DNA of 64,000 nucleotides, from positions 1-64,000 of the forward strand of contig NZ_LR656172.1 of NCBI RefSeq assembly GCF_902168435.1. Reading direction: 5' to 3'. The notes beneath the pieces are model-generated. The model was not told the DNA's origin, made no database searches, and saw only the letters and a list, made by a program, of their open reading frames with translations. This DNA is from Bacillus marasmi (GTDB taxonomy: Bacteria > Bacillota > Bacilli > Bacillales > Cytobacillaceae). Shown here piece after piece: positions 2,322-62,700 of the stretch; the first letter of the stretch is position 1; every line of letters starts with the position of its first letter. A program made the position numbers and the translations under genes.

Positions 2322-2486
2322 CGGTCTGCCAGCAAGTTCATAGTGCCAAAACCCGCCTCGAAGTTCGCGAAACTGTCCGTATGAAAGGTCCATACGGCCA
2401 AAAACCCACTCGAAACTCTTGAAAGTGTCCGTATGAAGGGTCCATACGGCCAAAAACCCACCCGAAGTTCTCAAAACAGTCCTATA
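2322..2486. repeat. 52-bp hairpin array (CCGTATG family)
   Basis: Two full units and two partial ones. The repeated TGTCCGTATGAA...GTCCATACGG starts at 2374 and 2426, a period of 52. Each unit contains the inverted repeat CCGTATG/CATACGG with a 7-base loop, then a linker CCAAAAACCCAC. It lies between convergent spoIID and vanZ-like genes. Confidence 0.8.
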
Positions 2487-2560
2487 ACAACTCATACCCA
2501 CAATAAAGTAGATAGATTAATGGGCAATGTCCTAGATAGTAAAAGAAGAGGTTGTACTTC

Positions 2561-3076
2561 CTACCCTCGCACCTTCACAAACAACCTCTCAAACCCTCTC
2601 ATAACCCTCCGTAACCAACCCAACCGTGTGCCATCGCCAAAATATGCGACTCGCACTAAATACCAGCTTATAAGCACGCCAGTCCAGTCCTTGACAGCGT
2701 CTATTAACGTCGCCGAACGATACGGCATAAAGGACTGGTGAATCTCATCAATAATCCCATACGATCCCGCAACAAGCGCACAAATCAAGCTTACCCGCGC
2801 CGTTAACGAAAAGCGCCCGCGTGACTGTGAACCAGCTGTCGATCCGGCAGACGAATCCGACTCCACTCCAGCACCACCACCAAAAGTCAGCACAGCCGCC
2901 ACAAATAACCAATACAAAATCGCAAACTCTACTAAATGTAGTGATTCTTTAATAAAACGATCCACGCCTTGCGCGGGCAACTCTACCACCGCATCGCTTG
3001 GCAGGCTCGACATAATCCAAACCGCCACCATATAGGCGAAAGGTAAAACCCTGAAAAACCACCTAACAAAAACCAT
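2561..3076 (-). CDS. VanZ family membrane protein
   Basis: The 171-residue protein carries the VanZ-like signature IIDEIHQSFMPYRSATLIDA followed by DWTG, plus the N-terminal MSSLPSDA motif typical of small VanZ proteins. Four membrane helices are predicted. A hydrophilic Gly/Ser-rich stretch (about residues 67-88, GAGVESDSSAGSTAGSQSRG) sits in the loop between helices 2 and 3 and looks like a low-complexity expansion. VanZ in enterococci gives low teicoplanin resistance; most Bacillus members have no known function. The gene is convergent with spoIID and divergent from spoIIQ. Confidence 0.85.
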   Translation of the reverse strand: MVFVRWFFRVLPFAYMVAVWIMSSLPSDAVVELPAQGVDRFIKESLHLVEFAILYWLFVAAVLTFGGGAGVESDSSAGSTAGSQSRGRFSLTARVSLICALVAGSYGIIDEIHQSFMPYRSATLIDAVKDWTGVLISWYLVRVAYFGDGTRLGWLRRVMRGFERLFVKVRG

Positions 3077-3215
3077 TAAAAATACTCCTTAAAAAATATT
3101 TGCAATCCATGCATAAAACTTTCAAACATGTCGAAAGATAAGACCAAAAAATTTTTTTCAGCAAATGTATATTATTCTCGCATTGTGTTCACAATGGTTG
3201 ACAGAGGTGATGAAA

Positions 3216-4220
3216 ATGAGAGAGGACGAAAAGAAACTTTCTTCTCAGGATTCTAGTATAAAGCGCTTTTTCAAAAAACGTTGGGTGATTCCAGCAATCT
3301 ATCTCGCGAGCGCTGCTATTATCCTAACTGGAATTCTATGGTATCAAAACAGTAAAGATTTGGGTTCAGAAAATCTGGACTACAACGCAACAGACATTTC
3401 TGGCAAAAAAATCAACGAACAGCCAGCCGTCGAAGTAAACCGCACAATGGAGAACTTCGTGATGCCTGTTAGCACTCCTGAAGACGTCGTGATTCAAAAA
3501 CAATTCTATGAATTTGACGGCAAAAAGGAAGAACAAGTCGCTGCATTAGTAGAGTACAAGAACTCGTACCATCCAAACACTGGTATCGATATTACGATGA
3601 GAGACAAAAAGGCTTTTGATGTTGTCGCGTCATTAAGCGGTACAGTTACTGACGTCAGAGAAGATTCCCTGCTAGGTAATGTCATCGAAATCGAACACGA
3701 CAAAGGTATTGTAACACAATATTCATCTGTTACGGATATCGAAGTTGAAGCTGGTGACGAAGTCGAACAAGGTCAAAGCTTGGCAACTGCTGGAAAAAGC
3801 TTATATAACGAAGATGCTGGCGTACACGTTCACTTCGAAATCCGCAAGGACAACGTGCCTGTCAATCCTGTAGACTTTATCAACAAGCCACTTAACGCTC
3901 TTCAAGATGCTGAAGTGGAGCCAAATAAAGCTGCAGAAGATGACAGCAAAACAGAAGACGACAAAGCCACTGACAATAAAGATGTAAAAGAAGAAAAAGA
4001 ATCAACAACAAACTCAAAGCCATCTGAAGACAAAGAGTCAACAGATGAAGGCAAACCTGCTGATGATAAAAAATCAACAGAAGAAAGCACGCCAACTGAT
4101 GACAGTGGTAAATCAGAAGACGACAAGTCAACTGATTCTGAAAAAGACGCTGAATCTGGAAAAGGTGACAAGCCTGCCGAAGACAGTAAAAAACCAGCTG
4201 CATCAAGCATGAATTCATAA
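3216..4220 (+). CDS. spoIIQ: Stage II sporulation protein Q (SpoIIQ), LytM-like
   Basis: SpoIIQ is made in the forespore. It binds SpoIIIAH across the intermembrane space to form the feeding channel and to hold membranes during engulfment. The N-terminus (MREDEKK...FFKKRWVIPA) is close to B. subtilis SpoIIQ; one membrane helix spans 23-43 and a degenerate M23/LytM domain covers about 110-220. The HVH pair (204, 206) and Asp125 remain, but the first zinc ligand position is Asn121 (NTGID instead of HxGID), so endopeptidase activity is unlikely, as in B. subtilis. About 100 residues of Lys/Glu/Ser/Asp-rich tail follow. ATG 3216 fits GAGGTGA at 3204-3210; upstream in-frame starts do not. Confidence 0.95.
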   Translation: MREDEKKLSSQDSSIKRFFKKRWVIPAIYLASAAIILTGILWYQNSKDLGSENLDYNATDISGKKINEQPAVEVNRTMENFVMPVSTPEDVVIQKQFYEFDGKKEEQVAALVEYKNSYHPNTGIDITMRDKKAFDVVASLSGTVTDVREDSLLGNVIEIEHDKGIVTQYSSVTDIEVEAGDEVEQGQSLATAGKSLYNEDAGVHVHFEIRKDNVPVNPVDFINKPLNALQDAEVEPNKAAEDDSKTEDDKATDNKDVKEEKESTTNSKPSEDKESTDEGKPADDKKSTEESTPTDDSGKSEDDKSTDSEKDAESGKGDKPAEDSKKPAASSMNS

Positions 4221-4230
4221 TCAAGCACAT

Positions 4231-4268
4231 AAGCTCGCAGAGGAAGCCTCCTTTGCGGGCTTTCTTTG
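4231..4268 (+). terminator. Terminator after spoIIQ
   Basis: GCTCGCAGAGGA pairs with TCCTTTGCGGGC (two G-U pairs) and is followed by TTTCTTTG. Confidence 0.85.
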
Positions 4269-4317
4269 TTGCTTAGGAGATTATAAATTTTAATGCTGTG
4301 GATAAGTTTCACCACGT

Positions 4318-4590
4318 TATACACGTCTAGCGAAAGCGGCCTAGGAGCTCGGGGTCACAAGCTTGTTGTTTAGTGAATGGGCTAGGAGCGATGGTCTAAG
4401 CCAAATCCCTCCAGAGATTATCATCTCTTGCGTGATTCGTCTTACGCCCGTAGCTCCTGAACGAGCCACTTAACTTTTCCTACTATCCCTTCCGGAAATT
4501 AGGATTTCCTGCAGGGCGGACCTTGCCCTGTCGCCCCTGATCAAGGCGCTTGTGCTATTGTTCCGTCCAGCGTTCTCGATAAAACTGCTC
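4318..4590. repeat. Long structured intergenic repeat of Bacillus type
   Basis: The sequence begins GTCTAGCGAAAGCGGCCTAG, GAGCTCGGGGTCACAAGC and ends CCTGTCGCCCCTGATCAAGG, CGCTTGTGC. From memory this resembles a degenerate copy of the large intergenic element common in Bacillus and Geobacillus (TCTAGCTCCAGCGCCTAG...GGTCATAAGC type). Many internal inverted repeats are present, and no ORF or known RNA family is evident. It sits between spoIIQ and spoIIID. Confidence 0.5.
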
Positions 4591-4758
4591 AACACTAAGT
4601 TCGTGGCGGCATTCGGTCTTTATTTTTCAAAAAATCAAGCAATTTCACTTCAATAATCAAAATTTTCCAAAAATTATCCGTCCTGTTTCACTATTTTGTG
4701 CATATTCCCGTCCGCGACTTAATAAACTGTTACAAACCTTACAAAGGAAGTGTTTGAG

Positions 4759-8061: not shown

Positions 8062-8100
8062 AAACGGACATCACCTTGTTGATGTCCGTTTTGTTGTTTC
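8062..8100 (+). terminator. Terminator after fabZ
   Basis: AAACGGACATCA pairs perfectly with TGATGTCCGTTT over a six-base loop, followed by TGTTGTTT. Confidence 0.9.
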
Positions 8101-8131
8101 AGAAGTAACTTTGTGGAAAAAACCTACTCCG

Positions 8132-8721
8132 AGGTAGATTCAAACTTGAAATGAATTTACCTAGCAAGAGACAAAATGCTCCAGGTAAATTCAAAGGGCA
8201 AATGAATTTACCTAGCGTGCAAAAAAGTGCTCCAGGTAAATCAAATCGTCAATGAATTTACCTAGCGTGTAAAAAAGTGCTCCAGGTAAATTCAAATCAC
8301 AAATGAATTTACCTAGCGTGAGAAAAAGTGCTCCAGGTAAATTCAAATCGCAAATGAATTTACCTAGCGTGTAAAAAAGTGCTCCAGGTAAATTCAAACC
8401 GCAAATGAGTTTACCTAGTGTATGAAAAAGTGCTCCAGGTAAATTCAAAGAGTAAATGAATATACCTAGCGTGCAAAAAAGTCCCTCAGGTAAATTCAAA
8501 TCGTAAATGAATATACCTAGCGTGAGAAAAAGTCCCCCAGGTAAATTCAAATCGTAAATGAATATACCTAGCGTGAGAAAAAGTGCTCCAGGTAATTCAA
8601 ACCGCAAATGAATTTACCTAGCATGAGACAAAATGCTCCAGGTAAATTCAAATCGTAAATGAATATACCTAGCGTGAGAAAAAGTTCCCCAGGTAAATTC
8701 AAATCGTAAATGAATTTACAT
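8132..8721. repeat. 51-bp hairpin array, 12 copies (AGGTAAATTC family)
   Basis: Unit starts at 8132, 8183, 8234, 8284, 8335, 8386, 8437, 8488, 8539, 8590, 8640 and 8691 give a period of 51 (50 twice, where one base is deleted). Each unit opens with a 10-bp inverted repeat AGGTAAATTC/GAATTTACCT around an 11-base loop whose sequence varies, then a linker AGCGTGAGAAAAAGTGCTCC. Another copy pair at the same spacing lies at 44.49 kb. No gene is supported on either strand. Confidence 0.9.
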
Positions 8722-9230
8722 TTTGCCCAGATCAAGCTTCAAAACCGAAAAAAGGAAACATAGACAGTCTCTATGTGCCCAAATCAAGCTTCAAAATCGA
8801 AAAAAGGTAACATAGACGGGCTCTATGTGCCCAAATCAAGCCTCAAAACTAAAAAACGGAAACATAGACAGTCTCTATGTGTCCAAATCAAGCTTCAAAA
8901 TCGAAAAAAGGTTACATAGACATGCTCTATGTGCCCAAATCAAAGCTTCAAAATCGAAAAGAGGTAACATAGGCGGGCTCTATGTGCCCAAATCAAGCCT
9001 CAAAACTAAAAAACGGTCGCATAGACAGACTCTATGTGCCCAAATCAAAGCCCAAAACTAAAAAACGGTCGCATAGACAATCTCTATGTACCCAAATCAA
9101 AGCCCAAAACTAAAAAACGGTCGCATAGATAGTCTCTATGTGCCCAAACAGAGCATTAAAATCGAAATAAGGTAGCATAGACAGGCTCCACATGCCCAAA
9201 TCAAGCCTCAAAATCGAAAAACGGTCACGA
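8722..9230. repeat. 52-bp hairpin array, about 9 copies (CATAGA family)
   Basis: The CTATGTGCCC anchor recurs at 8771, 8823, 8875, 8927, 8980, 9032, 9084 and 9136, with a degenerate copy near 9187 and a partial one at 8724. The period is 52. Each unit has CATAGA/TCTATG closing a five-base loop that varies freely (CAGTC, CGGGC, CATGC, CAGAC), then CCCAAATCAAGCTTCAAAAT. It abuts the 51-bp array without a gap. Confidence 0.9.
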
Positions 9231-17473: not shown

Positions 17474-17605
17474 TTCCTTTAACGCAGTGGGGGACAGTCC
17501 CCCACTGCGGTGAAGCTGCACAGAAGCGGGGGACTGTCCCCCACTGCGGTGAAGCTGCACAGAAGCGGGGGACTGTCCCCCACCACATCACCGCGCTAAA
17601 GCGCA
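17474..17605. repeat. Triple class 1 palindromic array
   Basis: Three GGGGGACNGTCCCCC cores lie in a row. The last two are part of an exact tandem repeat (CACTGCGGTGAAGCTGCACA, GAAGCGGGGGACTGTCCCCC) with a 49-bp period. The 17606-17737 stretch after it has no gene. Confidence 0.88.
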
Positions 17606-20464: not shown

Positions 20465-20539
20465 AATTTTGCCCTTCCTTCAATAATTCTCCATAGTGAA
20501 TTTTACCAATAACAATGATATATTAAAATAGCAAACAAA

Positions 20540-20632
20540 CGAAAAAGGCAAACCTTGAGAAATCTTGGGACGCAAAGCTATAGGGGCTTACGGGGACGCC
20601 GAAGTCAGCCAGTTACCGAATCTGTTGAAGTG
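20540..20632 (+). ncRNA. Cyclic-di-GMP-I (GEMM) riboswitch
   Basis: The aptamer reads GGCAAACC, a TTGAGAAATCTTGG hairpin with GAAA-like loop, GACGCAAAGCTA, a GC-rich second hairpin, then GTCAGCC and GTTACCG. The invariant GCAAACC, GGGACGCAAAGC and GUUACCG blocks and their order fit class I c-di-GMP riboswitches. It lies 390 bases upstream of the Flp pilin gene on the same strand, so it should let c-di-GMP control Tad pilus expression. Whether binding turns the operon on or off cannot be read with certainty. Confidence 0.9.
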
Positions 20633-23278: not shown

Positions 23279-23430
23279 TAGTACCCTAATTCAGATTCAC
23301 CGAGAAAAGCGGGACACTTAAAGCTTCTATTAGCGTCCTCTTTTAAGAAACTAGAGATGAATAAGGGCACTTAAAGCCTCAATTAGTGCCCTATTTATAT
23401 GAAACAAGGTTCAAATAGGTCACTAAAGAG
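23279..23430. repeat. 52-bp array, about 3 copies (GTGCCCT family)
   Basis: AGTACCCT at 23280, AGCGTCCT at 23332 and AGTGCCCT at 23385 give periods of 52 and 53. GGGCACTT...AGTGCCCT inverted pairs recur. It is the same family as the 14-copy array at 62.0-62.7 kb. It lies between tadG-like and cpaB-like genes, inside the pilus operon. Confidence 0.75.
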
Positions 23431-25574: not shown

Positions 25575-25784
25575 GTGCATATAAGGCTATAGTTGTGCAT
25601 ATCACTCAAAAGCTGTGCATATCAGGAAAAACATGTGCATATTCACAAATACTTGTGCATTAGCTCTCAAAAGCTGTGCATATATTTTAAAACTTGTATC
25701 ATATATTGAAAAAGTCGTGCATAAATTTTTTGAAATGTAGCATATCCGCAACTATGCGTGCATATATGCAGAAACCTGTGCATT
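25575..25784. repeat. GTGCAT direct repeats at 20-21 bp
   Basis: GTGCAT occurs at 25575, 25595, 25615, 25635, 25655, 25676, 25717, 25758 and 25778, with decayed copies at 25695 (GTATCAT) and 25738 (GTAGCAT). The step is 20 or 21 throughout, two turns of B-DNA. It sits in a 660-base AT-rich gap between tadZ and tadA. No ORF is supported in the gap. Confidence 0.85.
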
Positions 25785-31832: not shown

Positions 31833-32654
31833 TTGAAGCATGCAATTATCACCGCAGGTTCCAAAGGTCTTGGAAAAAAGGTAACAGAGGAGCTTCTGAA
31901 AAGCGGCTGCTCTGTCACCGTCAACTATCGCAGTGACAAAGCCAGAGTTGAGGAACTAATCGAAGAGTGGTCTCAATACAAAGATCGCCTCCAATTTATC
32001 CAAGGGGACATTACAAAAAAAGCTGACATTGAGAACATTGTCCACCAAGCTATGACACGTTTCGGCCGCGTCGATTACCTCATCAATAATGCTGGTCCTT
32101 ATGTATACGAACAGAAGAAGCTCGTCGATTACTTGGATGATGAATGGTACGACATCATAAATGGAAACTTAAATTCAGTTTATCACTTTGCTAAACTGGT
32201 AATCCCAATCATGAGAAAACAACATTTCGGTAGAATTATCACCTACGGTTTTCAAGATGCCGAGCATACACCGGGCTGGCTTTATCGCTCCGCCTACGGC
32301 GCAGCCAAAGTCGGACTTGTTTCATTAACGAGGACCATTGCGATTGAAGAAGCGGCTCACGGCATTACCGCAAACATGATTTGCCCAGGCGACATCCAAG
32401 GTGACATGAAGGAGAGCGACATCTTAACTGCAAGAACAACAGAAGCGCACGACCCGGCTAACACACCAATCGGACGCTCAGGCACAGGCGAAGACATCGC
32501 ACGACTGATCAAATTCCTCTGCGAAGACGACTCCGACCTCATCACCGGCAGCGTCATCTCAGCCTCCGGAGCCATCAACGTCGTCAACCGCCGTCGCCAC
32601 ACATCACCGCAGCACCGCAGCGGGGGCCTGTCCCCCAACAATTTAAAGCATTAA
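31833..32654 (+). CDS. SDR-family oxidoreductase next to folE
   Basis: A classical short-chain dehydrogenase (273 aa). The cofactor loop TAGSKGLGKKV and NYRSD suggest NADP(H); the NNAGPY motif and SAYGAAKVGLVSL give the YxxxK active site. Its place after folE suggests a pterin reductase (dihydromonapterin or dihydrofolate reductase-like, FolM type), an inference from context. It starts at TTG 31833 with AAAAGGGGGGT. The last 20 residues or so (RHTSPQHRSGGLSPNNLKH) are translated from a class 1 palindrome, so the native C-terminus ended near AINVVNRR. Confidence 0.85.
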   Translation: MKHAIITAGSKGLGKKVTEELLKSGCSVTVNYRSDKARVEELIEEWSQYKDRLQFIQGDITKKADIENIVHQAMTRFGRVDYLINNAGPYVYEQKKLVDYLDDEWYDIINGNLNSVYHFAKLVIPIMRKQHFGRIITYGFQDAEHTPGWLYRSAYGAAKVGLVSLTRTIAIEEAAHGITANMICPGDIQGDMKESDILTARTTEAHDPANTPIGRSGTGEDIARLIKFLCEDDSDLITGSVISASGAINVVNRRRHTSPQHRSGGLSPNNLKH

Positions 32655-32698
32655 AGCAGTGGGGGACAGTCCCCCACGGTTTTAAAGCGCTAAAGCGA
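32595..32698. repeat. Class 1 palindromes, the first inside an ORF end
   Basis: ACCGCAGCGGGGGCCTGTCC, then CCCAACAATTTAAAGCATTA, is translated as the SDR C-terminus. A second unit GCAGTGGGGGACAGTCCCCC follows, with GGTTTTAAAGCGCTAAAGCG. Confidence 0.88.
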
Positions 32699-36329: not shown

Positions 36330-39300
36330 TTACCCCAAACTCAACAATTCTTCCAGCTCACGATCTCCAAGCTCCGTAATCCAACTCTCACTCTGGATAA
36401 TCTGCTCATTCAGCGATTGCTTCTTCTCCAGCATCGCATCAATCTTCTCCTCGAGCGTCCCCGTCGAAATCAACTTATGCACATGCACAAACCGATCCTG
36501 CCCGATCCGGTACGCCCGGTCCGTCGCCTGATTCTCCACCGCCGGATTCCACCAACGATCGTAATGAATCACATGATTCGCCGCCGTCAAATTCAAGCCC
36601 GTCCCGCCAGCCTTCAAACTCAGCAAGAACACCGGAAACTCCCGCGCCTGGAACCGCTCAATCATCACATCCCGCTGCTGCTTCGGCACCGACCCATTCA
36701 AAAACGGCACCTCCACACCAAACCGCGACCGCACAACCTTGCGAATCATCTCGCCCATCTCAATATACTGTGTAAAAATCAAACAGCTCTCGCCGCCAGC
36801 CAAAACCGCATCAACCAACTCAACCAGCTTCTCCAGCTTCGCAGACCGCTCCAACACCCCTGAAGGCCGCGCCTCCTTCAAATACAGCGCCGGATGATTA
36901 CACAACTGCTTCAAACGCCCCAACATCTGCAGAATCAAGCCCCGCCGCTCAAAACCGCTCAGCGACTCAATCTCCGCAAACGTATCCTTCACCAGCTGCT
37001 CATACAACGACGCCTGCTCCGCCGTCAACGGACAATACTCCTTCTGCTCCAACTTATCCGGCAAATCCAACGCCACATCCTGATCCCGCTTCGTCCGCCG
37101 CAACAAGAACGGCCGAATCAACGCCTGCAACCGCTCCACGACTTCCTTATCGCCATCCTTCTCAATCGGCGCCACAAACCGCTTCTGGAACTGCGCCAAA
37201 CCACCTAAATACCCATGATTTGTAAAATCAAAAATGGACCAAAGCTCGCTCAAACGATTCTCCATCGGCGTCCCCGTCAACGCAATATGATGCCCGCCTC
37301 GCAACTTCCGCACCGCCCGCGACTGCTTCGTCGCCGCGTTCTTAATATTCTGCGCCTCATCAATCGCAATCGTACTCCACGAAACCGAATCAAACTCCGC
37401 AAAATCCAAATGCGTCAAGCCGTACGACGTCAACACCAAATCACAACCCGCAGCCCGAGCCTTAAAATCCTCATCCTTCAAACGCGTTGGCCCATAATGC
37501 AAGTACACCCGCATCTCAGGTGCAAACCGCTCAATCTCCTTCTGCCAGTTCCCAAGCACCGACGTCGGACAAACAATCAACGCTGGTCCACCACCAGCCA
37601 AACCTTCTGATTTTACCAATAGCAAATACGAAAGCAGCTGCACCGTCTTGCCCAAGCCCATATCATCAGCCAAACAAGCACCAAAGCCAACCCGCCGCAA
37701 AAACCACAGCCAGCTCATACCCAGCTGCTGATACGGTCGCAACTCGCCAACAAACCCGCTCGGCACATCAGCAAGCGGAATCTCCTTCGTATCATTCAGC
37801 TGCTGCACAAGCTGCTTCCACTGCCGGTTCAAATCAATCTGAATCTTCGCAAACGCCTTCGAATTCTCCAAATCATCATCATGCTCGCCATTCTCATCAG
37901 CCAGCAGTTCCTGCTCCAACAAATCGCGAACATGTAGCCCTTGCTTGTCCGCTTTCTTCATCAAATCCTGAATCTGCCGGATAAACTGCGGATCAAGCTT
38001 AATCCAACGCCCGCGCACAAACACCAAGCGCCGCTTCTCATTCACCATCTGCTGAAACTCCGATTCCGACAGCTCCACGCCATTCATTGAGAAACGCCAA
38101 TCATAATCCAAAAGCGCCGACAGCCCCACAAATGACTGGCCGCGACTCGACGAACCCTTCACCCGAGCCTTCACCTTCAAATTCGCATTCTTCATCGCCT
38201 GCCACCAAGCAGGGAGGAGGATCTCAACTCCAAGCGCCACCAACGTCTCACTCGCCTCAGTCAAAAACTCCCAAGCCTCATTCTCCGTCAACACCGTCGT
38301 CAAACGCCCACGCTTACCCTCAAGCCACGGAAACAGCCCAATCCAGCGCTTCTCCTCAGCCTCAATTCGACCAACAAACGGAAGCCATTCCCGCGGCACC
38401 GAGCCGCCCTCGATATCACCGATAGAAAACAACCCAAACTCCTCGTCGCCCGACTTCCCGCGCAAAAACACACTCAAGCTCCAAGACTCATGCGCCTCAG
38501 CCGGCTCCTCAAGCTGCAATCCAACCGTGAACGGCGTCGCATCCTCGCTCAATCCAATCCACTGCCGCCAGCTATCCTCATCGAAATAATGCGAAAGCGC
38601 CCGTGCCGAAATCCCCTGCTCCCGCAAGTGCTGCAGCTTCTCACCGAACAGCTGCTTCATCGCAGCATCCTGCTCTAAATACGCATCCAGCGCTGCATTA
38701 TACCAATCTTTGATAAAATCAAGCAGTGGCCGCTCGACTTCCAGCCTTTCGTCTTTCACAACATCCGTATCCGACCCCGAAGCCCCAACGCCCACAGACT
38801 CCGCGCCAGACCCACCAGGCATCGTCACGCCCGCACTCACCACGCCAGCAGCCTCCGCATCAGAATCCCCAGCATCCGCCACGCTCGCACCGCCCCGAGC
38901 CTCAGCACCAGAACCCCCAGCATCCGTCACGCCCGCAACGCCCCGAGCCTCCACACCAGAACCCCCAGCATCCGTCACGCCCGCAGCCCCAACACCGCTC
39001 AAGTCCTCCGTATCCACCGAATCCCCGGCAACGCCCAAATCTCCAGCACCATCCGCACCGACCTCATCATCCTCAACCACAAAAACCTCGCCGCCACGCA
39101 CCACCAGCTTCTGCTCCCAAAACCCCGGACCAAACTCGTCCAGCACACGCTCCGGCACCGCCCAGCGAAACACGGCCCCAGACTCCCACGCCGCAAAATC
39201 CGGCAGCCAATCATGCTCAACCACCGCATCATACAACGCCGGACCCGCCGCCAAGCCAACCTGCGACAAATCATCCCAATCCCAATCAATAAACCGATTG

Positions 39301-39539
39301 AACGGCTCATCGCTAAACAGCGTCACCAGCTCCCAGCCATTGACCAGAACACCTTCCACGCCATCAATCCTCGACACCTCAACCATCGTGCCGTAAAACG
39401 TTTCCTTATGATGAAAAAATAACAATTTTTTCCACAAATCAACCGGAAACACTTCGCCATTTCGAGCCAAGCCCTTCAAAAAATACCGCCCATCATCCAA
39501 AGGGAAAAGTTCAACTTTTATATACCTCGACCTAAGCAT
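36330..39539 (-). CDS. ywqA: SNF2-family helicase YwqA
   Basis: A 1069-residue Snf2/Rad54-type ATP-dependent translocase. Motif I is ADDMGLGKTVQLL, motif II IDEAQNIKN, motif III LTGTPMENRLSELWS; the helicase C half has LLSLKAGGTGLNLTAANHVI and ATDRAYRIGQ. The N-terminal half has the SNF2-associated bacterial domain. Between about 157 and 260 is a Gly/Ala/Asp/Val-rich insertion with three near-copies of VTDAGGSGVEARGVAG, GC-rich and lacking in B. subtilis YwqA (about 920 aa). Its start overlaps the upstream ywqB stop by eight bases. The pair YwqA plus SWIM protein YwqB is conserved in Bacillus; its role is unknown. Confidence 0.92.
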   Translation of the reverse strand: MLRSRYIKVELFPLDDGRYFLKGLARNGEVFPVDLWKKLLFFHHKETFYGTMVEVSRIDGVEGVLVNGWELVTLFSDEPFNRFIDWDWDDLSQVGLAAGPALYDAVVEHDWLPDFAAWESGAVFRWAVPERVLDEFGPGFWEQKLVVRGGEVFVVEDDEVGADGAGDLGVAGDSVDTEDLSGVGAAGVTDAGGSGVEARGVAGVTDAGGSGAEARGGASVADAGDSDAEAAGVVSAGVTMPGGSGAESVGVGASGSDTDVVKDERLEVERPLLDFIKDWYNAALDAYLEQDAAMKQLFGEKLQHLREQGISARALSHYFDEDSWRQWIGLSEDATPFTVGLQLEEPAEAHESWSLSVFLRGKSGDEEFGLFSIGDIEGGSVPREWLPFVGRIEAEEKRWIGLFPWLEGKRGRLTTVLTENEAWEFLTEASETLVALGVEILLPAWWQAMKNANLKVKARVKGSSSRGQSFVGLSALLDYDWRFSMNGVELSESEFQQMVNEKRRLVFVRGRWIKLDPQFIRQIQDLMKKADKQGLHVRDLLEQELLADENGEHDDDLENSKAFAKIQIDLNRQWKQLVQQLNDTKEIPLADVPSGFVGELRPYQQLGMSWLWFLRRVGFGACLADDMGLGKTVQLLSYLLLVKSEGLAGGGPALIVCPTSVLGNWQKEIERFAPEMRVYLHYGPTRLKDEDFKARAAGCDLVLTSYGLTHLDFAEFDSVSWSTIAIDEAQNIKNAATKQSRAVRKLRGGHHIALTGTPMENRLSELWSIFDFTNHGYLGGLAQFQKRFVAPIEKDGDKEVVERLQALIRPFLLRRTKRDQDVALDLPDKLEQKEYCPLTAEQASLYEQLVKDTFAEIESLSGFERRGLILQMLGRLKQLCNHPALYLKEARPSGVLERSAKLEKLVELVDAVLAGGESCLIFTQYIEMGEMIRKVVRSRFGVEVPFLNGSVPKQQRDVMIERFQAREFPVFLLSLKAGGTGLNLTAANHVIHYDRWWNPAVENQATDRAYRIGQDRFVHVHKLISTGTLEEKIDAMLEKKQSLNEQIIQSESWITELGDRELEELLSLG

Positions 39540-41157
39540 TGAGCAATTTCCCCCTTATACATTCCTCTTGAAACGCCCGCAACCGCCGGGTCTGCACCTG
39601 AAGCAACGCAAAAAACCGCTCCCACTCATCCAAACGATCAAGCTTCTTATAAAACGTCCGCACCTTTTTCAACAACCGCACCGCCGCACGATAGCCAACC
39701 CGATTCTTCAAATCAATACTGCTCTGAATCGCCTGATGATAAAGCGGGAGGAGGGCTGCTGGATCACGCTTGCCGATCTCCTTCAGCCGCTCCGAATCCA
39801 AATACTCAAGCTCCAACCCAATCAGCACCTGCAACTCAACCCACTTCGCAAACGCACCTTCTCTATATAAAAACGAATCATAAACACGATAACTATAGGG
39901 CAAACAAACCAACAACGTCCGCTCCAGCATATCGCTTCGGCCAGACGCCTCACAAAAGGGGCGAATCAAATCAAGCGCCATCCCCGTAAAATCCGTACCC
40001 GCCTCATAGTCATCCAACAGCTTCAAATACTCATGCAGACGCCCCACAAATAACTCCACAAACGGCGCAATCCGCTTCCAATCCTTCTCTGCGTTTATCG
40101 ACTCAAGCCAAAATATCATATACGGCATAATCCGCACCGACAACTCATCGAGCTGCGCCAGCGCCTGCTCATCATTCCGCGCCAAAACCTGCTGATGCAA
40201 AAGCGCAATATTCAACGCAAAATCATCTTCATTTTGCTCAAACGCCTGATACAACCACTGCCGCTCCTCGTTTCGCCACTCCGACTTCTTCAGCAAGCCA
40301 CTCCACAACTGGCGGTACAAGTGAACACCCTCATACTCAACCACCTTATTCACACTAAGCAGCTGCCGCGCCTCATTCTTTATTTTTTCAATAAAATCAT
40401 CAAAGGCAAACGGCATCGTCGAAACGGCCAAACTCTTCATCGCCTTCTCCGCATCCTCAAGCAAATTCTGAAACAAATGGCGATAATAGCGGTCCACCAT
40501 ATAAGACGTATGCCCAAACTCCCGACTCAACTCACCCAAAAGCAAGAACGACTTCACCCCCGCGATGAGCTCATACAAATACCGCCACTCCTGCTCAACC
40601 GGCGCATCCGCCTGAGTCCTACGCCAATACACCGCAAACAAATCGCTCACCACATAAGGATTCGGCTTACCCTGCCCGTACATAATCGACTCAAAACTCT
40701 GCGAAAACGTCTCCAGCCAACCCTCGAAATTCGCCTCCGGCCGCTTACTCGACTTCAACAAATCCCGCGCCGTCTTCAAACCAGACAACACCGCAACATT
40801 CTTCGCCGCAATCGGACGTCGCCACTCCTCAACCCAATGCGCGACACTCCTCGCTTGCGCAAGACTTTGGAAAAATACTGCCAATCGGTGCCGACAAAAA
40901 GTCGTAGAAGGGCACGAACAAGCACTTCCAGCTAAATCGTCCAAATCCAACCGTACGTAAACAGGCGTCACATCCTGCACAGAGCCGTACGCATGATCAC
41001 CGTCAAACCGCAGCTGATGCACCAAGCCCTGCCGATAAATCATCAAACCCTTCTGCACCAACTTCACATGCTCCTCAACCTCAGGCCGAAGCAGACCCTT
41101 CAAATCCCGCGCCGCCTGGTCCAACATCTCCGCTGTATATTCATCAATGGTCGCCAC
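39532..41157 (-). CDS. ywqB: SWIM zinc-finger protein YwqB
   Basis: The 541-residue protein has a SWIM zinc finger near residues 88-110 (GSACSCPSTTFCRHRLAVFF, pattern CxCx6CxH), then a long helical domain. SWIM proteins of this type accompany Snf2 helicases and are thought to bind DNA or the helicase. The first GTG after AAAGGAG (41169-41175 on the minus strand) is 41157; earlier TTG codons overlap or precede the site. The gene overlaps ywqA by eight bases, which implies translational coupling. The upstream side holds a class 2 element and the 53-bp array. Confidence 0.85.
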   Translation of the reverse strand: MATIDEYTAEMLDQAARDLKGLLRPEVEEHVKLVQKGLMIYRQGLVHQLRFDGDHAYGSVQDVTPVYVRLDLDDLAGSACSCPSTTFCRHRLAVFFQSLAQARSVAHWVEEWRRPIAAKNVAVLSGLKTARDLLKSSKRPEANFEGWLETFSQSFESIMYGQGKPNPYVVSDLFAVYWRRTQADAPVEQEWRYLYELIAGVKSFLLLGELSREFGHTSYMVDRYYRHLFQNLLEDAEKAMKSLAVSTMPFAFDDFIEKIKNEARQLLSVNKVVEYEGVHLYRQLWSGLLKKSEWRNEERQWLYQAFEQNEDDFALNIALLHQQVLARNDEQALAQLDELSVRIMPYMIFWLESINAEKDWKRIAPFVELFVGRLHEYLKLLDDYEAGTDFTGMALDLIRPFCEASGRSDMLERTLLVCLPYSYRVYDSFLYREGAFAKWVELQVLIGLELEYLDSERLKEIGKRDPAALLPLYHQAIQSSIDLKNRVGYRAAVRLLKKVRTFYKKLDRLDEWERFFALLQVQTRRLRAFQEECIRGKLLNA

Positions 41158-41173
41158 AACAACCAACTCCTTT

Positions 41174-41340
41174 GGAAACAAGGGGACGGTTCTGCTGTTT
41201 CCCTAAATTCTTCCACACAAACATCCAACCCCTTAAAAAACCATAATATCTAATTATACCAAATTCTCCCCACAAAACCGAGCCAGCCTTGCTCAACAAA
41301 AATAGGGATGAACAGAGGGACCTGTCCCTGTGAACCTCCA
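41174..41340. repeat. Class 2 element (GGAAACAAGGGGACGGTTCT)
   Basis: GGAAACAAGGGGACGGTTCT, then GCTGTTTCCCTAAATTCTTC at 41174-41215, with AAACAG/CTGTTT pairing. At 41310-41340 AGAGGGACCTGTCCCTGTGA is a second palindromic half. This family recurs near 43.4, 44.3, 45.2 and 59.8 kb, always in the same orientation. It resembles the palindromes associated with RAYT transposases in Firmicutes; no transposase gene is in the window. Confidence 0.75.
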
Positions 41341-42771
41341 TTTTCAGTGCTCGCACAAAACCAAGCCATCAATAAAGCTCATTGGCTACTTAATTTTCAG
41401 TGCTCGATCAAAACCAAGCCATCAATAAAGCTCATTGGCTACTTAATTTTCAGTGCTCGATCAAAACCAAGCCATTAATAAGGGTTATTGGCTACTTAAT
41501 TTTCAGTACGACACCAAAACCAAGCCATCAATAAAGCTCATTGGCTACTTAATTTTCAGTGCGACACCAAAACCAAGCCATCAATAAAGCTCATTGGCTA
41601 CTTAATTTTCAGTGCTCGATCAAAACCAAGCCATCAATAAGGGTTATTGGCTACTTAATTTTCAGTGCGACTCCAAAACCAAGCCATCAATAAGGCTCAT
41701 TGACTACTTAATTTCCAGTGCGACATCAAAAGCAAGCAAACAATAAGGGTTATTGGCTACTTAATTTCCAGTACGACTCCAAAACCAAGCCATCAATAAG
41801 GCTCATTGACTACTTAATTTTCAGTGCGACTCCAAAACCAAGCAATCAATAAGGCTCATTGACTACTTAATTTTCAGTGCGATACCAAAACCAAGCCATC
41901 AATAAGGCTCATTGATTACTTAATTTCCAGTACGACATCAAAACCAAGCCATCAATAAGGTTCATTGGCTACTTAATTTCCAGTGCGACATCAAAACCAA
42001 GCCATCAATAAGGTTCATTGACTACTTAATTTTCAGTGCGACATCAAAAGCAAGCCATCAATAAGGTTCATTGACTACTTAATTTTTAGTGCGACATCAA
42101 AAGCAAGCAATCAATAAGTCTCATTGGCTACTTAATTTCCAGTGCGACACCAAAACCAAGCCATCAATAAGGCTTATTGCCTACTTAATTTCCAGTGCGA
42201 CTCCAAAACCAAGCAATCAATAAGTCTCATTGACTACTTAATTTCCAGTGCGACATCAAAACCAAGCAATCAATAACGCTCATTGACTACTTAATTTTCA
42301 GTACGTCACCAAAACCAAGCCATCAATAAAGCTCATTGACTACTTAATTTTCAGTGCGACACCAAAACCAAGCCATCAATAAGGGTTATTGGCTACTTAA
42401 TTTCCAGTACGACACCAAAACCAAGCCATCAATAAAGCTCATTGGCTACTTAATTTCCAGTGCGACATCAAAACCAAGCCATCAATAAGGGTTATTGGCT
42501 ACTTAATTTCCAGTGTGACTCCAAAACCAAGCCATCAATAAGTCTCATTGACTACTTAATTTTCAGTACGTCACCAAAACCAAGCCATCAATAAGGGTTA
42601 TTGGCTACTTAATTTTCAGTGCGACACCAAAACCAAGCCATCAATAAGTCTCATTGACTACTTAATTTCCAGTGCGACATCAAAACCAAGCAATCAATAA
42701 AGCTCATTGGCTACTTAATTTCCAGAACGACATCGAAACCAAGCAATCAATAACTCTCGTTGGCTACTTAA
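41341..42771. repeat. 53-bp tandem array, exactly 27 units
   Basis: The consensus TTTTCAGTGCGACACCAAAA, CCAAGCCATCAATAAGGCTC, ATTGGCTACTTAA repeats from 41341 to 42771; 27 x 53 equals the length of 1431. Each unit contains AGCCA-TC-AAT pairing with ATTGGCT. Variation is concentrated at a few positions (GCTCGATC/GCGACATC, AAAGCTC/AAGGGTT/AAGGCTC/AAGTCTC, TGGCT/TGACT). It lies between divergent ywqB and an HTH regulator. No ORF of any credibility crosses it. Confidence 0.95.
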
Positions 42772-42962
42772 TTAAACAGAACCCCAAAAAGTCGAACATT
42801 CCTCTGTCTTCCAAACACCCCACACGAACACGCTAACCCTCCAAAATCGCTGATATATCAATGTCAACTAGCGGTTGCGGCGCGATGCAACTAACGCTAT
42901 CTTTACTTTTTGCAAATTGTGAAGCCATAATAGGACTAGATTGATGAAAGGTGATTGCAGAA

Positions 42963-43427: not shown

Positions 43428-43690
43428 CGAAACAAGGGGACGGTTGTTCTGTTTTTCCAACAAGCTATCGTGCCCACTACCACCTCAAAAAGAAAGAAGC
43501 GGTAACGATAACCGAGCTATCGTGCCCATCACCCCCCAAAAAAGAGCGAAGCGGTAACGATAAACGAGTTATCGTGCCCATCCCCCCTCAAAAAAGAGCG
43601 AAGCGGTAACTGTAAACGAGCTATCGTGCCCATCCCTGCTCAAAAAAGAGGGAACGGTAACGATAAACGAGCTACCGTGCCCGCTGATTA
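43428..43690. repeat. Class 2 element, then 52-bp array of 5 units (CTATCGTGCCC family)
   Basis: CGAAACAAGGGGACGGTTGT begins the class 2 part. GCTATCGTGCCC or its variants then recur at 43464, 43516, 43568, 43620 and 43671, period 52 (last step 51). Units contain ACGAT/ATCGT around AAACGAGCT, with GG/CC outside. The last unit runs into the stop codon of the minus-strand gene at 43672. Confidence 0.85.
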
Positions 43691-44301
43691 AACAAATAAG
43701 CAACCACAGCGAATGCACCAACAGCTAATAATACGAACAAACTATTCAAATAAGCTTTGCTTATCAATATTATTAACAGGTACCCGCCAGCACTAAACGA
43801 GAAAATAACAGTGAAAAAACGCTTAAACAAAACCGCCCCTTGATAAAACCCGATCAATGCCCCAATCCCACTTGTTAAAAAAGTAAGCCAAAACAACAAT
43901 TCATTTGGCACTCTAAAATTCATCAGTACATTAAATATGACAACCCACCACGACATTAAAACCGCATAACGATTGTCCCTGAAAAATGGAAACAAAACAA
44001 TCCCAAATAACAAACTAAATGAAATGGTAAAAACGGGAGGCATCAATAAATAAAAAATAGAATTAACCATAAATAATCCAAGCGTCGTTAAGAATACAAG
44101 CCCAAATCCACTCGTGGTAAATCGCCGCCAGACCCGAACAAACAACGCAAATAACCCCAAAGTCAATGAAGCAAATATCCACTCAAAACCGAACTTCTCT
44201 GACAATTTATATAGAAGGCTATTGCTGAAAACCGCCATAACATACATCAGCAATTTCCAAACATGAACAGGAATCTTCTGTTTCTCTAAATTCCTCCACA
44301 C
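43672..44301 (-). CDS. Polytopic membrane protein of unknown function
   Basis: The 209-residue frame contains about seven membrane helices and basic loops (RVWRRFTTSG, FLFFRDNRY-type), without recognisable motifs. The start is uncertain. The annotated GTG 44301 begins MWRNLEKQKIP, which is the translation of half a class 2 element (GTGGAGGAATTTAGAGAAAC), and GGAGG inside it could equally be the ribosome binding site of a start a few codons later. The final codons come from the 52-bp array. Both ends of the gene thus touch repeats. Confidence 0.55.
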   Translation of the reverse strand: MWRNLEKQKIPVHVWKLLMYVMAVFSNSLLYKLSEKFGFEWIFASLTLGLFALFVRVWRRFTTSGFGLVFLTTLGLFMVNSIFYLLMPPVFTISFSLLFGIVLFPFFRDNRYAVLMSWWVVIFNVLMNFRVPNELLFWLTFLTSGIGALIGFYQGAVLFKRFFTVIFSFSAGGYLLIILISKAYLNSLFVLLAVGAFAVVAYLFNQRAR

Positions 44302-44344: not shown

Positions 44345-44575
44345 ATATTCCCGAAACAAGGGGACGGCTCTGTCGTCTACCTAAATTCCTCCAATGCACA
44401 ACCCCCGCCAACCGTGCCACACACAAGCTTTGCATTCCCAACATAAAAGAAAAATAGAGAGTTAGATTTACCTAGCGCCTCAAAACAGCCCCTAGGTAAA
44501 TTCAAACTCCAAATGAATTTACCTAGCCCCTGAAAACAGTCTCCAGGTAAATTCAAACCCCAATTGCCCGAATCC
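44345..44575. repeat. Class 2 element and two AGGTAAATTC units
   Basis: CGAAACAAGGGGACGGCTCT, then GTCGTCTACCTAAATTCCTC at 44352-44392. AGGTAAATTC follows at 44494 and 44545 (51 apart), each facing a GAATTTACCT or ATTTACCTAG arm. It is the same family and spacing as the 8.1-kb array, 36 kb away. Confidence 0.85.
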
Positions 44576-58619: not shown

Positions 58620-58830
58620 GTTTGTAATTAACGGGAGGATTTCCGGTTAATTTTAAAAATATCCAAATTTTCTTCTAAATAAGGGAAGCATTTCCGCTTA
58701 TTTGATAAAAATCATTGGATTTGGCCTTGTTTTGAGGATATAAGCGGAATTCCTCCGCTTATATCGGCTTCTTAAGGGACCACTTTATAGATTAACGGGA
58801 AATTCTCCGCTTATTACGTCGCAAACTTAC
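58620..58830. repeat. 52/60-bp hairpin repeats (AAGCGGAA family), 4 units
   Basis: TTAACGGGAGGATTTCCGGTTAA, ATAAGGGAAGCATTTCCGCTTAT, ATAAGCGGAATTCCTCCGCTTAT and TTAACGGGAAATTCTCCGCTTAT are near-palindromes starting near 58628, 58680, 58740 and 58792 (steps 52, 60, 52). They fill the gap between dehydratase and activase genes; no ORF is supported. Confidence 0.8.
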
Positions 58831-59811: not shown

Positions 59812-59905
59812 AAACAGGGGGACGGTTCTAAACAGGGGGACGGTTCTACCGTTTCCCTAAATTCTTCCAATTTCAATAGGACGAGGGACCTGTCCCTGTG
59901 GACCA
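59811..59905. repeat. Class 2 palindromic element, right border of the BMC locus
   Basis: GAAACAGGGGGACGGTTCTA is partly duplicated, followed by CCGTTTCCCTAAATTCTTCC, then GAGGGACCTGTCCCTGTGGA. It has the same orientation and order as the element at 45171. Confidence 0.8.
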
Positions 59906-59992
59906 TGGACCAACCCCAACCAAAAAAGCCGCCAGGAATCCCAATCCCTAGCGGCTCAATACTAATCCAAAATCCAAGACCAACAATCCAAA

Positions 59993-60304: not shown

Positions 60305-60588
60305 ACCAGCCTCTCCCTTCCTTTTTCAGCTATATTACTATTTCAAGAAAGAAATAAAAAATCCTCCTAAAAATTTAGAATTTTTTAAAATTAACCCAAA
60401 TAGACAAAATTCTACCAAAATCGGGGGAAAATGGCGAAAAATCACAACCGCCATAAAAATCAAACCAAAACAATGCGCGAATAATGTTATTTTTATAAAA
60501 TAAATACCGTTTGTAACTTCAAATAAATTAGGCTTCATAAATTGCACTAAAATCTATGAAAATCGCAAGTATCATTTTCACAACAATT

Positions 60589-60607
60589 GTATATACTATG
60601 TATATAC
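60589..60607. promoter_or_regulatory. Probable MazE operator
   Basis: Two copies of the self-complementary GTATATAC (60589-60596 and 60600-60607) are 11 bp apart, one helical turn, and 80 bases upstream of the antitoxin start. Autoregulation by MazE or MazEF at such palindromes is usual. Confidence 0.65.
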
Positions 60608-60686
60608 TTTTCGGTTTGGGGGTGATATAATGTGTTCCAAGGAACAGTCAGAAAATAAAAAAAATCAAAATAAAGGGGTTGACTAC

Positions 60687-60938
60687 ATGTCTACAGTTAT
60701 AGCTCAAAAGTGGGGTAACAGTTTGGGTATACGTATTCCCAAAGAGGCTGCTGATAGAATAGGTATCGACCAGGGTTCCGAAATGGAATTAAGTGTGATT
60801 GGGAGCGAAGGTGTCATCACTTTAAAACCAAAAAGAACACGGAAAAAATACACATTAGAAGAACTAATATCACAGATTACTCCTGAAAATCGACACGAAG
60901 AAATTGATTTTGGAACCGAGGGGCGTGAATTGATTTAA
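60687..60938 (+). CDS. mazE: MazE-like antitoxin (AbrB-type)
   Basis: The 83-residue protein has the AbrB/MazE swapped-hairpin domain (VIAQKWGNSLGIRIPKEAAD) followed by a C-terminal acidic tail (ELISQITPENRHEEIDFGTE) that should thread through the toxin. ATG 60687 lies eight bases after TAAAGGGG; the frame opens earlier at 60630 without family similarity. Its stop overlaps the mazF start by one base (TAATG), typical of type II toxin-antitoxin pairs. Confidence 0.92.
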   Translation: MSTVIAQKWGNSLGIRIPKEAADRIGIDQGSEMELSVIGSEGVITLKPKRTRKKYTLEELISQITPENRHEEIDFGTEGRELI

Positions 60939-61315
60939 TGCAAGCAATTGTACCAGAGCGAGGAGATTTAATCGTATTAAACTTCAATCCACAAGCTGGC
61001 CACGAGCAAGCTGGGAGAAGGAACGCTATTGTTTTATCACCGAAACAATTCAATCAAGCGACAGGATTTATTGCCGTTTGTCCTATTACCAATCAAAAGA
61101 AGGGATATCCCTTTGAAGTAGAATTACCAAAAGAGGGAATATCACTAGATGGTGGTGGCTACCCGATAACTGGTGTAATATTGACTGATCAAGTTAAATC
61201 ATTGGATTGGACAGCGCGAAACCTAAAAGTACTAAAAAAATATGATTCAGATGATGAAAATATAGATGATATTTTAGATGAATGCCTTGCCAAAATAGGA
61301 ACATACCTAACATAA
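60938..61315 (+). CDS. mazF: MazF-like mRNA interferase toxin
   Basis: The 125-residue protein belongs to the PemK/MazF fold: RGDLIVLNFNPQAGHEQAGR has the conserved Gln/Arg face, then RNAIVLSPKQFNQATGFIAV, CPITNQKKGYPFEVEL and VILTDQVKSLDW. It would cleave RNA at short single-stranded sites; the motif is not predictable. It overlaps mazE by one base. This is not the core Bacillus ndoA locus, because alr is not adjacent, so it is an accessory pair. Confidence 0.93.
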   Translation: MQAIVPERGDLIVLNFNPQAGHEQAGRRNAIVLSPKQFNQATGFIAVCPITNQKKGYPFEVELPKEGISLDGGGYPITGVILTDQVKSLDWTARNLKVLKKYDSDDENIDDILDECLAKIGTYLT

Positions 61316-61342
61316 TCCTTTCCCCCAGAAAGGGTTATTTTT
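61314..61342 (+). terminator. Terminator after mazEF
   Basis: AATCCTTT pairs with AAAGGGTT (one G-U) around CCCCCAG, then ATTTTTAT. Confidence 0.75.
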
Positions 61343-61409
61343 ATGAATTTATTTTATAGGAAAAGCTATATAAAGCATTTTGGAAAAATCGATATAAAGG
61401 AGGACCACC

Positions 61410-61964
61410 ATGGGCGATTTTGGAGCAAAGAAATTCACAGCGAAAAATGGAGAAGGCTTTACCGTCCGAACCGCTTTACCAAACGACGCCGCACAAGTAC
61501 TAACCTTAAACAAAGCAATCTTTGCAGAAGCGCCATATTTGCTAACGACACAAGCGGAATTCACGATAACACCCGAACAAGAACAGCAATTTTTACAACA
61601 GACACTTGATGCTCCTGGAAAAATAGCCCTCGTTGCCGCAACCGAAACCGAAATCATCGCATTTTTACACTTTGAAAACGGCCACAGACAACGAATCCAA
61701 CATCAAGGCACACTAAGCATGAGCGTAAAAAGAGAATTCCGAAACGAAGGAGTAGGAACAGCCCTGTTAAAATCACTCCTCGAATGGGCAGAAACCAACC
61801 CCTTAATCGAAAAAGTCTGCCTCGAAGTGTTCGCCGACAACATACCGGCCATCAACCTCTACAAAACCCTGGGCTTCACTGAAGAAGGCCTCAAAAAAAG
61901 AGCCATCAAAAAATCCAATCACGACTATCACGATCTAGTCCTAATGGCACGCTTCGTAGACTAA
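61410..61964 (+). CDS. GNAT family acetyltransferase
   Basis: The 184-residue protein has the acetyl-CoA motif A SMSVKREFRNEGVGTALLKS (R/Q-x-x-G-x-G/A form EGVGTAL) and motif B VCLEVFADNIPAINLYKTLG, FTEEGLKKRA, as in Rim/RibT-like N-acetyltransferases. The substrate is unknown. TAAAGGAGGACC precedes the ATG. The stop lies just before a short class 2-like remnant (CCGAAACAAGGGGGCAG). Confidence 0.9.
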   Translation: MGDFGAKKFTAKNGEGFTVRTALPNDAAQVLTLNKAIFAEAPYLLTTQAEFTITPEQEQQFLQQTLDAPGKIALVAATETEIIAFLHFENGHRQRIQHQGTLSMSVKREFRNEGVGTALLKSLLEWAETNPLIEKVCLEVFADNIPAINLYKTLGFTEEGLKKRAIKKSNHDYHDLVLMARFVD

Positions 61965-61989
61965 TTCCACCGAAACAAGGGGGCAGATT

Positions 61990-62700
61990 ATAGCCCCTTT
62001 AAGTGCCCTATTTCTTTGGTTTTCTAAAATTAAGACTACTTAGAGCACCCATAAGTGCCCTGTTTTTTTATCTAGTTTAAAATTGAGGGCACTTAGAGTA
62101 TCTATAAGTAACCTATTTTTAAGACAATCCAAAATCAAGGACAAAAGCCCATTTAAGTTACCTATTTTTAAGTTAATAAAAAAACGAGGGTACTAATAAC
62201 TCCTATAAGCGACCTATTTTTAAGCTAATTAAAAATAGAGGGCACTAAGCACACTTATAAGTGCCCTGTTTTTTTATCTAGTTTAAAATTGAGGGTACAT
62301 AGAGCATCTATAAGTACCCTATTTTTAAGACAATCCAAAATCAAGGACACTAAGCCCATTTAAGTTACCTATTTTTAAGTTAATAAAAAAACGAGGGTAC
62401 TAATAACACCCATAAGCGACCTATTTTTAAGCAAATTAAAAATTGAGGGCACTAAGGACACCGATAAGTGCCCTGTTTTATATCTAGTTTAAAATCGAGG
62501 GCACTTAGAGTATCTATAAGTAACCTATTTTTAAGCTAATTAAAAATCGAGGGTACTTAGAACATCTATAAGCACCCTGTTTTTTAGAAAATATTAAATT
62601 AAGGGCACATAGAGTACCTATAAGTGCCCTATTTTTTAGACAATCTAAAAACGAGGCCACTTATCACCCTCATAAGCACCCTATTTTTCAGCCAATCCCA
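61990..62700. repeat. 52-bp array, 14 units with 207-bp higher order (GTGCCCT family)
   Basis: AAGTGCCCT-type anchors fall at 62001, 62053, 62106, 62155, 62207, 62259, 62312, 62362, 62414, 62466, 62518, 62570, 62622 and 62674. Complete units pair GTGCCCT with AGGGCAC over a 24-base loop. Blocks of four units (62053-62258 and 62259-62465) are nearly identical, and a third block begins at 62466. Bases 62700-62799 are low-complexity and hold no gene. Confidence 0.92.

Follow-up and report, generated by a model that had tools for sequence, protein, structure and literature searches.

Tandem arrays in the window

We analyzed a 64,000-nucleotide stretch of the Bacillus marasmi genome (contig NZ_LR656172.1 of assembly GCF_902168435.1, positions 1 to 64,000), referred to throughout as the window, in which intergenic tandem arrays of hairpin-bearing units with a period of 51–53 bp had been predicted at 2.3, 8.1, 8.7, 23.3, 33.0, 41.3, 43.5, 44.5, 58.6 and 62.0 kb. 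The six arrays at 8.1, 8.7, 41.3, 43.5, 44.5 and 62.0 kb are all identified by Tandem Repeats Finder (TRF). Most of the arrays of this genome belong to a widespread and conserved repeat superfamily that is oriented with respect to replication.

The 8.1-kb array (8127–8719, + strand) holds approximately 11.6 copies of a 51-bp unit whose palindromes (AGGTAAATTCA-9-TGAATTTACCT) are spaced every 51 bp. It sits downstream of the predicted intrinsic terminator of a fabZ-like gene, an inverted repeat with a T run at 8065–8095 (+) that separates the gene from the array. Directly adjoining it is the 8.7-kb array (8724–9225, +), identified by TRF as approximately 9.6 copies of a 52-bp unit with the core GGTAACATAGA...TCTATGTGCCC. 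This array contains nine matches, scoring 25.9 to 41.1 bits, to R1, a covariance model trained on 37 units from the window's genome alone, for which E-values are rough. A further 52-bp array of approximately 4.3 copies with the core GGTAACGATA...TATCGTGCCC occupies a convergent gene gap at 43459–43700 (+; TRF 43459–43682), and its R1 matches reach 43.9 bits. The 44.5-kb array (44466–44570, +; TRF 44466–44563) is short, with about two 51-bp units of the 8.1-kb type. It is 79% identical to the 8.1-kb array, and the units of both carry the variant AGGTAAAT...ATTTACCT. DNA resembling the 8.1-kb array occurs at three further sites of the same genome outside the window. The array at 62038–62696 (TRF 62038–62661) is degenerate, with approximately 12 copies of a 52-bp unit and the core GG(T/G)NAC-TTA...TAAGTGCCC. 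Its assignment to the - strand is a weak call, with eleven R1 matches on that strand (13.4 to 39 bits) and four on the + strand (11.6 to 17.5 bits).

At 23.3 kb there is one recognizable superfamily unit (23364–23415, +, with the palindrome at 23364–23365), which fits the model with 30.7 bits; the array claimed there is thus reduced to this single unit. The region at 2.3 kb (2322–2490, no strand assigned) does contain two strong palindromes (CCGTATG-7-CATACGG) exactly 52 bp apart, but it comprises only two to three units. Also without a strand assignment, the 41.3-kb array (41340–42773) was delimited from TRF and the sequence itself and consists of 27.1 copies of a 53-bp unit with a weak palindrome only; judged by eye, a similar 53-bp array is present at L015 in the same genome. 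The array claimed at 58.6 kb is weak, with three or four loosely spaced palindromes (58620–58830, unassigned strand), three of them set apart by steps of 51 and 61 bp. We could not confirm the one claimed at 33.0 kb, where there is one palindrome (shuffled sequences average 0.09), no 51–53-bp step and no TRF array. No join by sequence was achieved between the superfamily and the 41.3-, 2.3- and 58.6-kb repeats.

The shared period is real and dominates the tandem arrays of this genome. We sampled 526,928 bases of the genome with TRF, excluding the window as well as two stretches selected because of earlier matches, and retained arrays of at least four copies with a period of at least 20 bp. Eleven of the 14 arrays have periods of 51–53 bp, and the others have periods of 102 (2 x 51), 21 and 36 bp. 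No such array was found in 400 kb from three genomes of the same order that lack an R1 match, which is a small control. With a detector that requires only GG, CC and arm pairing, and for distances of 30–120 bp, pairs of units across 33 stretches from this genome fall solely at 51–53 and 102–105 bp, except for two counts at 75 bp; the named loci described below add eight counts at 47, 99 and 108 bp. If 12 arrays per 0.53-Mb sample are typical, the 4.64-Mb genome would contain approximately 100 arrays.

A common repeat unit

The original prediction held that the arrays come from at least seven families with no common sequence. For most of them this view does not stand, as the units of the 8.7-, 43.5- and 62-kb arrays and those of most other arrays sampled in this genome, rotated on the palindrome, align without gaps over 28 bp as one superfamily. 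The consensus common to the units is nGG(T/G)NAC-15 bp-GT(G/T)NCC. The unit consists of n GG(T/G)N AC, an inner arm of 3–5 bp, a centre of 7–9 bp, the complementary inner arm, GT(G/T)N CC n, and an A-rich linker of 23–24 bp. Columns 4–5 are usually TA and columns 25–26 usually GC, and this conserved break in the symmetry gives the unit a direction. At L030, three abutting arrays run in the same direction with three different inner arms. The shared period of most arrays is explained by shared descent and not by convergence of unrelated families.

The 8.1- and 44.5-kb units and one array at L029 were left out of R1 because their centre lengths differ. Also excluded, as their frame did not fit, were the repeats at 2.3, 41.3 and 58.6 kb, those at L015, L023, L026, L032 and L039, and another array at L029. 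Solitary copies (18 of the palindrome type and 15 of the linker type, with strands counted separately) do not reveal a founding unit.

Covariation, conservation and spacing

The arms of the palindrome covary. Among the 37 units of the model, pairing at the named positions is intact in 92.6% of cells, compared with 26–40% in slid controls, and 65 cells are altered on both sides of a pair. Loci were also collected from other genomes by exact matching to a pattern of two tandem units. This pattern dictates GGTAAC, GTGCCC and their spacing, and only the remaining arm columns are free to test pairing. These columns (8–22, 9–21, 10–20 and 11–19) pair in 63, 58, 68 and 59 of the 80 listed loci, respectively, where shuffled means are 24–36. 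All four inner pairs are complete at 33 of the 80 loci, three at 32, two at nine and one at six. When a single locus is taken from each of the 42 genomes, an average of 2.98 of the four pairs form, and the maximum in 2,000 shuffles is 2.02. In some genomes (Siminovitchia, Rossellomorea) the same inner columns are unpaired at separate loci.

The arms are also conserved in sequence. Within loci the mean difference between units is 0.036 for the inner arms, compared with 0.185 for the centre and 0.177 for the linker. The same contrast is seen between six species at one orthologous site, where the units were delimited by the right arm alone: left-arm columns, with columns 4–5 omitted, show a difference in 5 of 135 comparisons, and linker columns do so in 193 of 375. 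The stems therefore do not decay as fast as the linkers, either within loci or between the species at this site.

The spacing of the half-sites is nearly fixed. Within a palindrome, 164 of 168 half-site pairs have a spacing of 21 bp, and the distance to the next unit is 30–32 bp in 175 of 182 pairs (31 bp in 131, 30 bp in 38 and 32 bp in six); the strands were scanned separately for these counts, and many pairs are counted twice. Reversed sequence gave no half-site pairs at these spacings. As 21 and approximately 31 bp correspond to about two and three turns of B-DNA, the half-sites would lie on roughly the same side of the helix. The suggestion that selection acts on geometry, with units facing one side, gains support from these distances.

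Each unit had further been described as carrying one hairpin. We do find one imperfect palindrome per unit, but a hairpin is not favoured over a double-stranded palindrome. Covariation alone is insufficient to argue for a hairpin, because palindromic protein sites covary too when both half-sites fit one protein. Single-side changes in 107 arrays (733 distinct units) comprise 64 G.T, 79 A.C and 109 transversions, in addition to 20 compensatory doubles, and mismatches among 44 inner-arm types are A.A (20), A.C (7), G.G (6), G.T (3) and others (14). A folded strand would be expected to accept G.T more readily than A.C, but G.T wobble is no commoner than A.C in the arms, which leaves folding of a strand without support. 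Taken together, the rigid spacing, the lack of a wobble excess and the unpaired columns shared between loci of some genomes would favour a duplex site over a folded strand.

Orientation relative to replication and neighbouring genes

In complete or scaffold-level genomes, R1 matches switch strand at two points among the matches listed. The position of dnaA, checked afterwards, fits a switch point even where the record starts away from the origin (100 kb in G043, 4.46 Mb in G142, 3.75 Mb in G198 and 2.64 Mb in G042). We scored the polarity with the antipode of the origin taken as the terminus and with about 150 of 227 matches covered in one listing. Among the matches listed, the strand carrying GGTAAC is the leading strand in 79 of 89 clusters from ten genomes, and in 46 of the 48 clusters with at least two listed matches. 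If the arrays are independent, these proportions correspond to p values of 5e-4 and 8e-5 against the 74% of open reading frames (138 of 187, from the fetched loci) that lie on the leading strand. We fetched 40 loci around clusters and identified 41 array pieces, 40 of which face the fork; the sole piece against it comprises three units of a longer fork-facing array (L209). Our scripts assign the orientation from columns 4, 5, 25 and 26 of the unit. Within the window, synteny with G002 and G001 identifies the + strand around 6–11 kb as leading, and the 8.7-kb array therefore agrees with the polarity.

The arrays are also unevenly distributed among the types of intergenic region, as judged from gene, terminator and array calls made with simple scripts of our own. 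Co-directional neighbours have an array in their own sense in 33 of 39 cases. Convergent and divergent gaps hold arrays in a ratio of 28 to 10, compared with 99 to 123 for background gaps, and only 2 of the 41 array pieces from the fetched loci lie between divergent genes. Where the upstream gene is in the same sense, the array sits behind its predicted terminator in 56 of 93 cases, and in 14 of 93 a terminator comes after the array. In the fetched loci, the 13 arrays in convergent gaps are without exception oriented with the fork, as is the one array located between two lagging-strand genes, and gene direction alone consequently does not explain the polarity. A role in transcript-end structure, another of the earlier suggestions, fits poorly, since the arrays follow replication wherever it can be separated from gene direction and more than half of those with an upstream gene in their sense lie behind predicted terminators.

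Distribution and variation at orthologous sites

R1 matches were identified in 15 of 41 genomes, including that of the window and representatives of other genera, and in at least 54 of 397 genomes sampled across the order. In a sample of the phylum, 13 of 398 genomes have a match; two of these belong to the family of the window's genome and are the only ones with more than one match, while the remaining 11 have one weak match each. All of these counts are lower bounds, as 143–150 candidates per genome were scored in scans of single genomes and 14 in the 400-genome scans. The exact pattern of two tandem units is present in at least 115 stretches of the named genome collection. The 80 named loci among the matches listed are all from Bacilli, ranging from the Bacillaceae to the Sporolactobacillaceae and Carnobacteriaceae. 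The same pattern has no matches in viral contigs, and three arrays used as BLAST queries gave no match in plasmids.

Genomes often use one inner arm for their arrays, and the window's genome uses several. The inner arm is TCAT/ATGA at five of six Ornithinibacillus caprae loci (TCAA/ATGA at the sixth), and a TAG-type arm is found at all six loci of Cytobacillus purgationiresistens.

Individual arrays vary in length at the same site. In one gap behind a leading-strand gene in genus g4, a loose right-arm pattern identifies 13 right arms in G270, seven in G312, six each in G221 and G411, four in G392 and two in G142, and no array is recognizable in G170 or G247; the array persists and changes in copy number at this one orthologous site. 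The site of the 8.1-kb array holds two to three units in the congener G004 and none in G001, G002 and G003.

A proposed function and its alternatives

We consider the arrays to be best read, tentatively, as double-stranded DNA sites that are polar and helically phased and would serve a putative protein of the Bacilli. The covarying and conserved arms, the rigid spacing, the polarity and the confinement of multiple R1 matches in the phylum sample to the window's own family all speak for such sites. Each unit would be one bipartite, slightly asymmetric palindromic site, with a GGTAAC-type half-site, 15 bp and a GTGCCC-type half-site, that a chromosomally encoded protein would recognize as duplex DNA. 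An array of n units would then display a row of protein dimers on one face of the helix, one every five turns. The asymmetry, with TA in the left half-site and GC in the right, would make the site directional, and cells would keep the arrays mostly fork-directed, in gaps behind leading-strand genes. Along with binding by a protein and to the duplex, we infer that the polarity is functional, with a possible role in fork passage, segregation or chromosome folding. Nucleoid-protein docking, which had been suggested earlier, is close to this putative function. It is conceivable, although we think it rather doubtful, that a conserved protein of the Bacilli senses which way replication runs from phased arrays of its palindromic sites behind leading-strand genes, a polar and array-based marking of the chromosome in which genome-specific arms co-evolve with the protein.

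Several observations weigh against protein sites of this kind. No binding protein was identified: Y1, RTP and flanking families do not track the arrays, and no Pfam family occurs in more than two of the 113 proteins flanking the named loci. Ten clusters are reversed, and two of these contain several matches; G198 has four of the ten, G142 has three, and G044, G045 and G270 have one each. Two of the 40 fetched loci, both counter-polar clusters by position, gave no array by script. The 62-kb array runs opposite to those at 8.7 and 43.5 kb and would face against the fork if the window is collinear. At the orthologous site in genus g4, G007 carries a different 52-bp array (of the AAGGGCATCTTTCTGGTCTAAAGGTACCCTT type) on the opposite strand (C62:107995-108647, L221). 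No single array seems essential, because some congeners lack whole arrays. Finally, the edges of arrays tend to halve a site: the first arm is a right arm in 60 of 97 arrays and the last a left arm in 62 of 97, where a random phase would give 35% by our own arithmetic. This is odd if whole sites alone matter. The effect is partly decay, as the absent half-sites at the edges are slightly closer to the arm than is background (3.0 vs 2.4, and 3.25 vs 2.0, of 9 positions).

This preference of the edges for the palindrome centre is what would be expected if the unit were instead a lagging-strand single-stranded DNA element. With the GGTAAC strand as lagging-strand template, units would fold on it during replication, would be inserted and multiplied by a strand-specific enzyme or through loop-to-loop template switching, and would for this reason face one way. 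Replication polarity, the many sites behind predicted terminators and presence or absence at the same site among congeners would all fit such an element. However, G.T changes are not in excess of A.C, the flanking proteins include no recurrent family, the viral and plasmid searches gave no match, and the Y1 transposase (PF01797) does not track the arrays, since three of the 15 model-positive and six of the 26 model-negative genomes lack it. On balance we find this element rather unlikely, although it is the strongest of the alternatives. We regard as improbable a neutral satellite, in which slippage multiplies any palindromic seed and the conserved arms are simply what folds or recombines best. 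Slippage would account for right-arm numbers from 2 to 13 at one orthologous site and for the drift of centres and linkers. However, 42 genomes of Bacilli share tandem pairs built on the same half-sites; the search pattern forces the outer bases and the spacing, yet by our own arithmetic chance matches to its 24 bases are close to nil. In addition, the sequence of the arms, beyond their pairing, is kept between species where about half of the linker comparisons differ, and a near-symmetric palindrome does not predict polarity.

The sense of co-directional neighbours and the preponderance of convergent over divergent gaps would be expected of transcribed RNA hairpins at gene ends. However, transcription alone predicts an even split in convergent gaps, where all 13 arrays go with the fork, and 56 of the 93 arrays with an upstream gene in their sense sit behind a predicted terminator. 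At the gathering threshold, the sole Rfam match in the window is a c-di-GMP-I riboswitch, and none of the arrays has one. Given this, the polarity and the lack of a wobble excess, RNA was rejected as the principal explanation, and we consider it very unlikely. Convergence of unrelated families on one period is scarcely credible, as a single superfamily accounts for the majority of arrays in the window and in the sampled genome, although the 41.3-, 2.3- and 58.6-kb repeats share the period or a palindrome without being joined to it by sequence.

Comparison with known systems

Small intergenic palindromes in many copies are reminiscent of REP elements and their RAYT transposases. REP elements are palindromes of 20–40 bp. 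They carry a GTAG or CGTC tag (BMC Genomics 2013, PMC3733652). The repeats described here do not have this form, as they consist of GGTAAC/GTGCCC half-sites in long, head-to-tail arrays with a fixed period of 51–53 bp that are polar to replication. A Y1/HUH (RAYT-type) mobilizer was rejected, as PF01797 is absent from the model-positive genomes G006, G007 and G033 and present in 20 of 26 genomes without model matches.

MIRU and other intergenic minisatellites are similar in having tandem units of about 50–60 bp and a variable copy number, but they are not known to us to have palindromic half-sites, covarying arms or replication polarity. The direction of the KOPS/SRS words of FtsK/SpoIIIE and of Chi follows the replichore, and the arrays share this polarity with KOPS/SRS. 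However, those words are short, scattered and non-palindromic, whereas the repeats here are palindromic and in arrays. Ter sites, bound by RTP, are asymmetric palindromic protein sites with fork polarity that occur near the terminus only. They resemble the arrays in their orientation relative to the fork, but RTP (PF02334) is above the cut-off in only 2 of 15 model-positive genomes, with no match in the window's genome and four congeners (G000–G004). The ssiA site is placed on the lagging strand, and chromosomal arrays of it are not known to us. It is described as the primosome assembly site of pAMbeta1, a Gram-positive replicon, in two reviews (PMC5703833, PMC10804225).

The approximate 11-7-11 geometry of the unit and the tendency of array edges to fall at the palindrome centre are reminiscent of sites for tyrosine recombinases. 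Those sites, such as dif, which is single, and attC, have this geometry, and recombining sites need identical centres. Because the centre here differs within loci as much as the linker (0.185), we rejected a recombinase site. CRISPR arrays, with identical repeats and unique spacers, were also rejected, as the linkers are shared within arrays (mean difference 0.177).

We found no description of the repeat among the titles and abstract openings listed in searches of an open-access library, and we provisionally regard it as undescribed. An unnamed repeat with tens of arrays per genome, from Bacillaceae to Carnobacteriaceae, whose half-sites are conserved and whose arrays are oriented with the fork, points to an unrecognized replication-tied DNA-binding activity in a well-studied class of bacteria. 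The sequence of the unit could serve as bait for its putative protein.

Other repeats and features

A separate family of short palindromes, based on GGGGGACAGTCCCC and GGGGGACTGTCCCCC-like sequences, occurs in the window at 174–322, 17489–17583, 32617–32696 and 59812–59848, three of these with 39-bp steps. Two Y1_Tnp matches are present in the window's genome. Tandem repeats of 20–21 bp around AAAATATATGCACAACTTTT are present at 25594–25727 and elsewhere (L017:1440-1500, L032:11780-11842 and L035:17951-18011). The long open frame at 36330–39539 (- strand) contains a 48-bp tandem repeat (38782–38985) and adjoins a frame at 39532–41181 with a weak SWIM zinc-finger match. The c-di-GMP-I riboswitch is located at 20537–20620 and scores 66.3 bits. 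Tandem repeats of 118–124 bp that contain similar words (GTCACAAG, GGCGACAGGCACAAG and complement) were identified at two distant sites, L024:2777-3019 and L025:14826-15338, and may constitute another repeat family of this genome.

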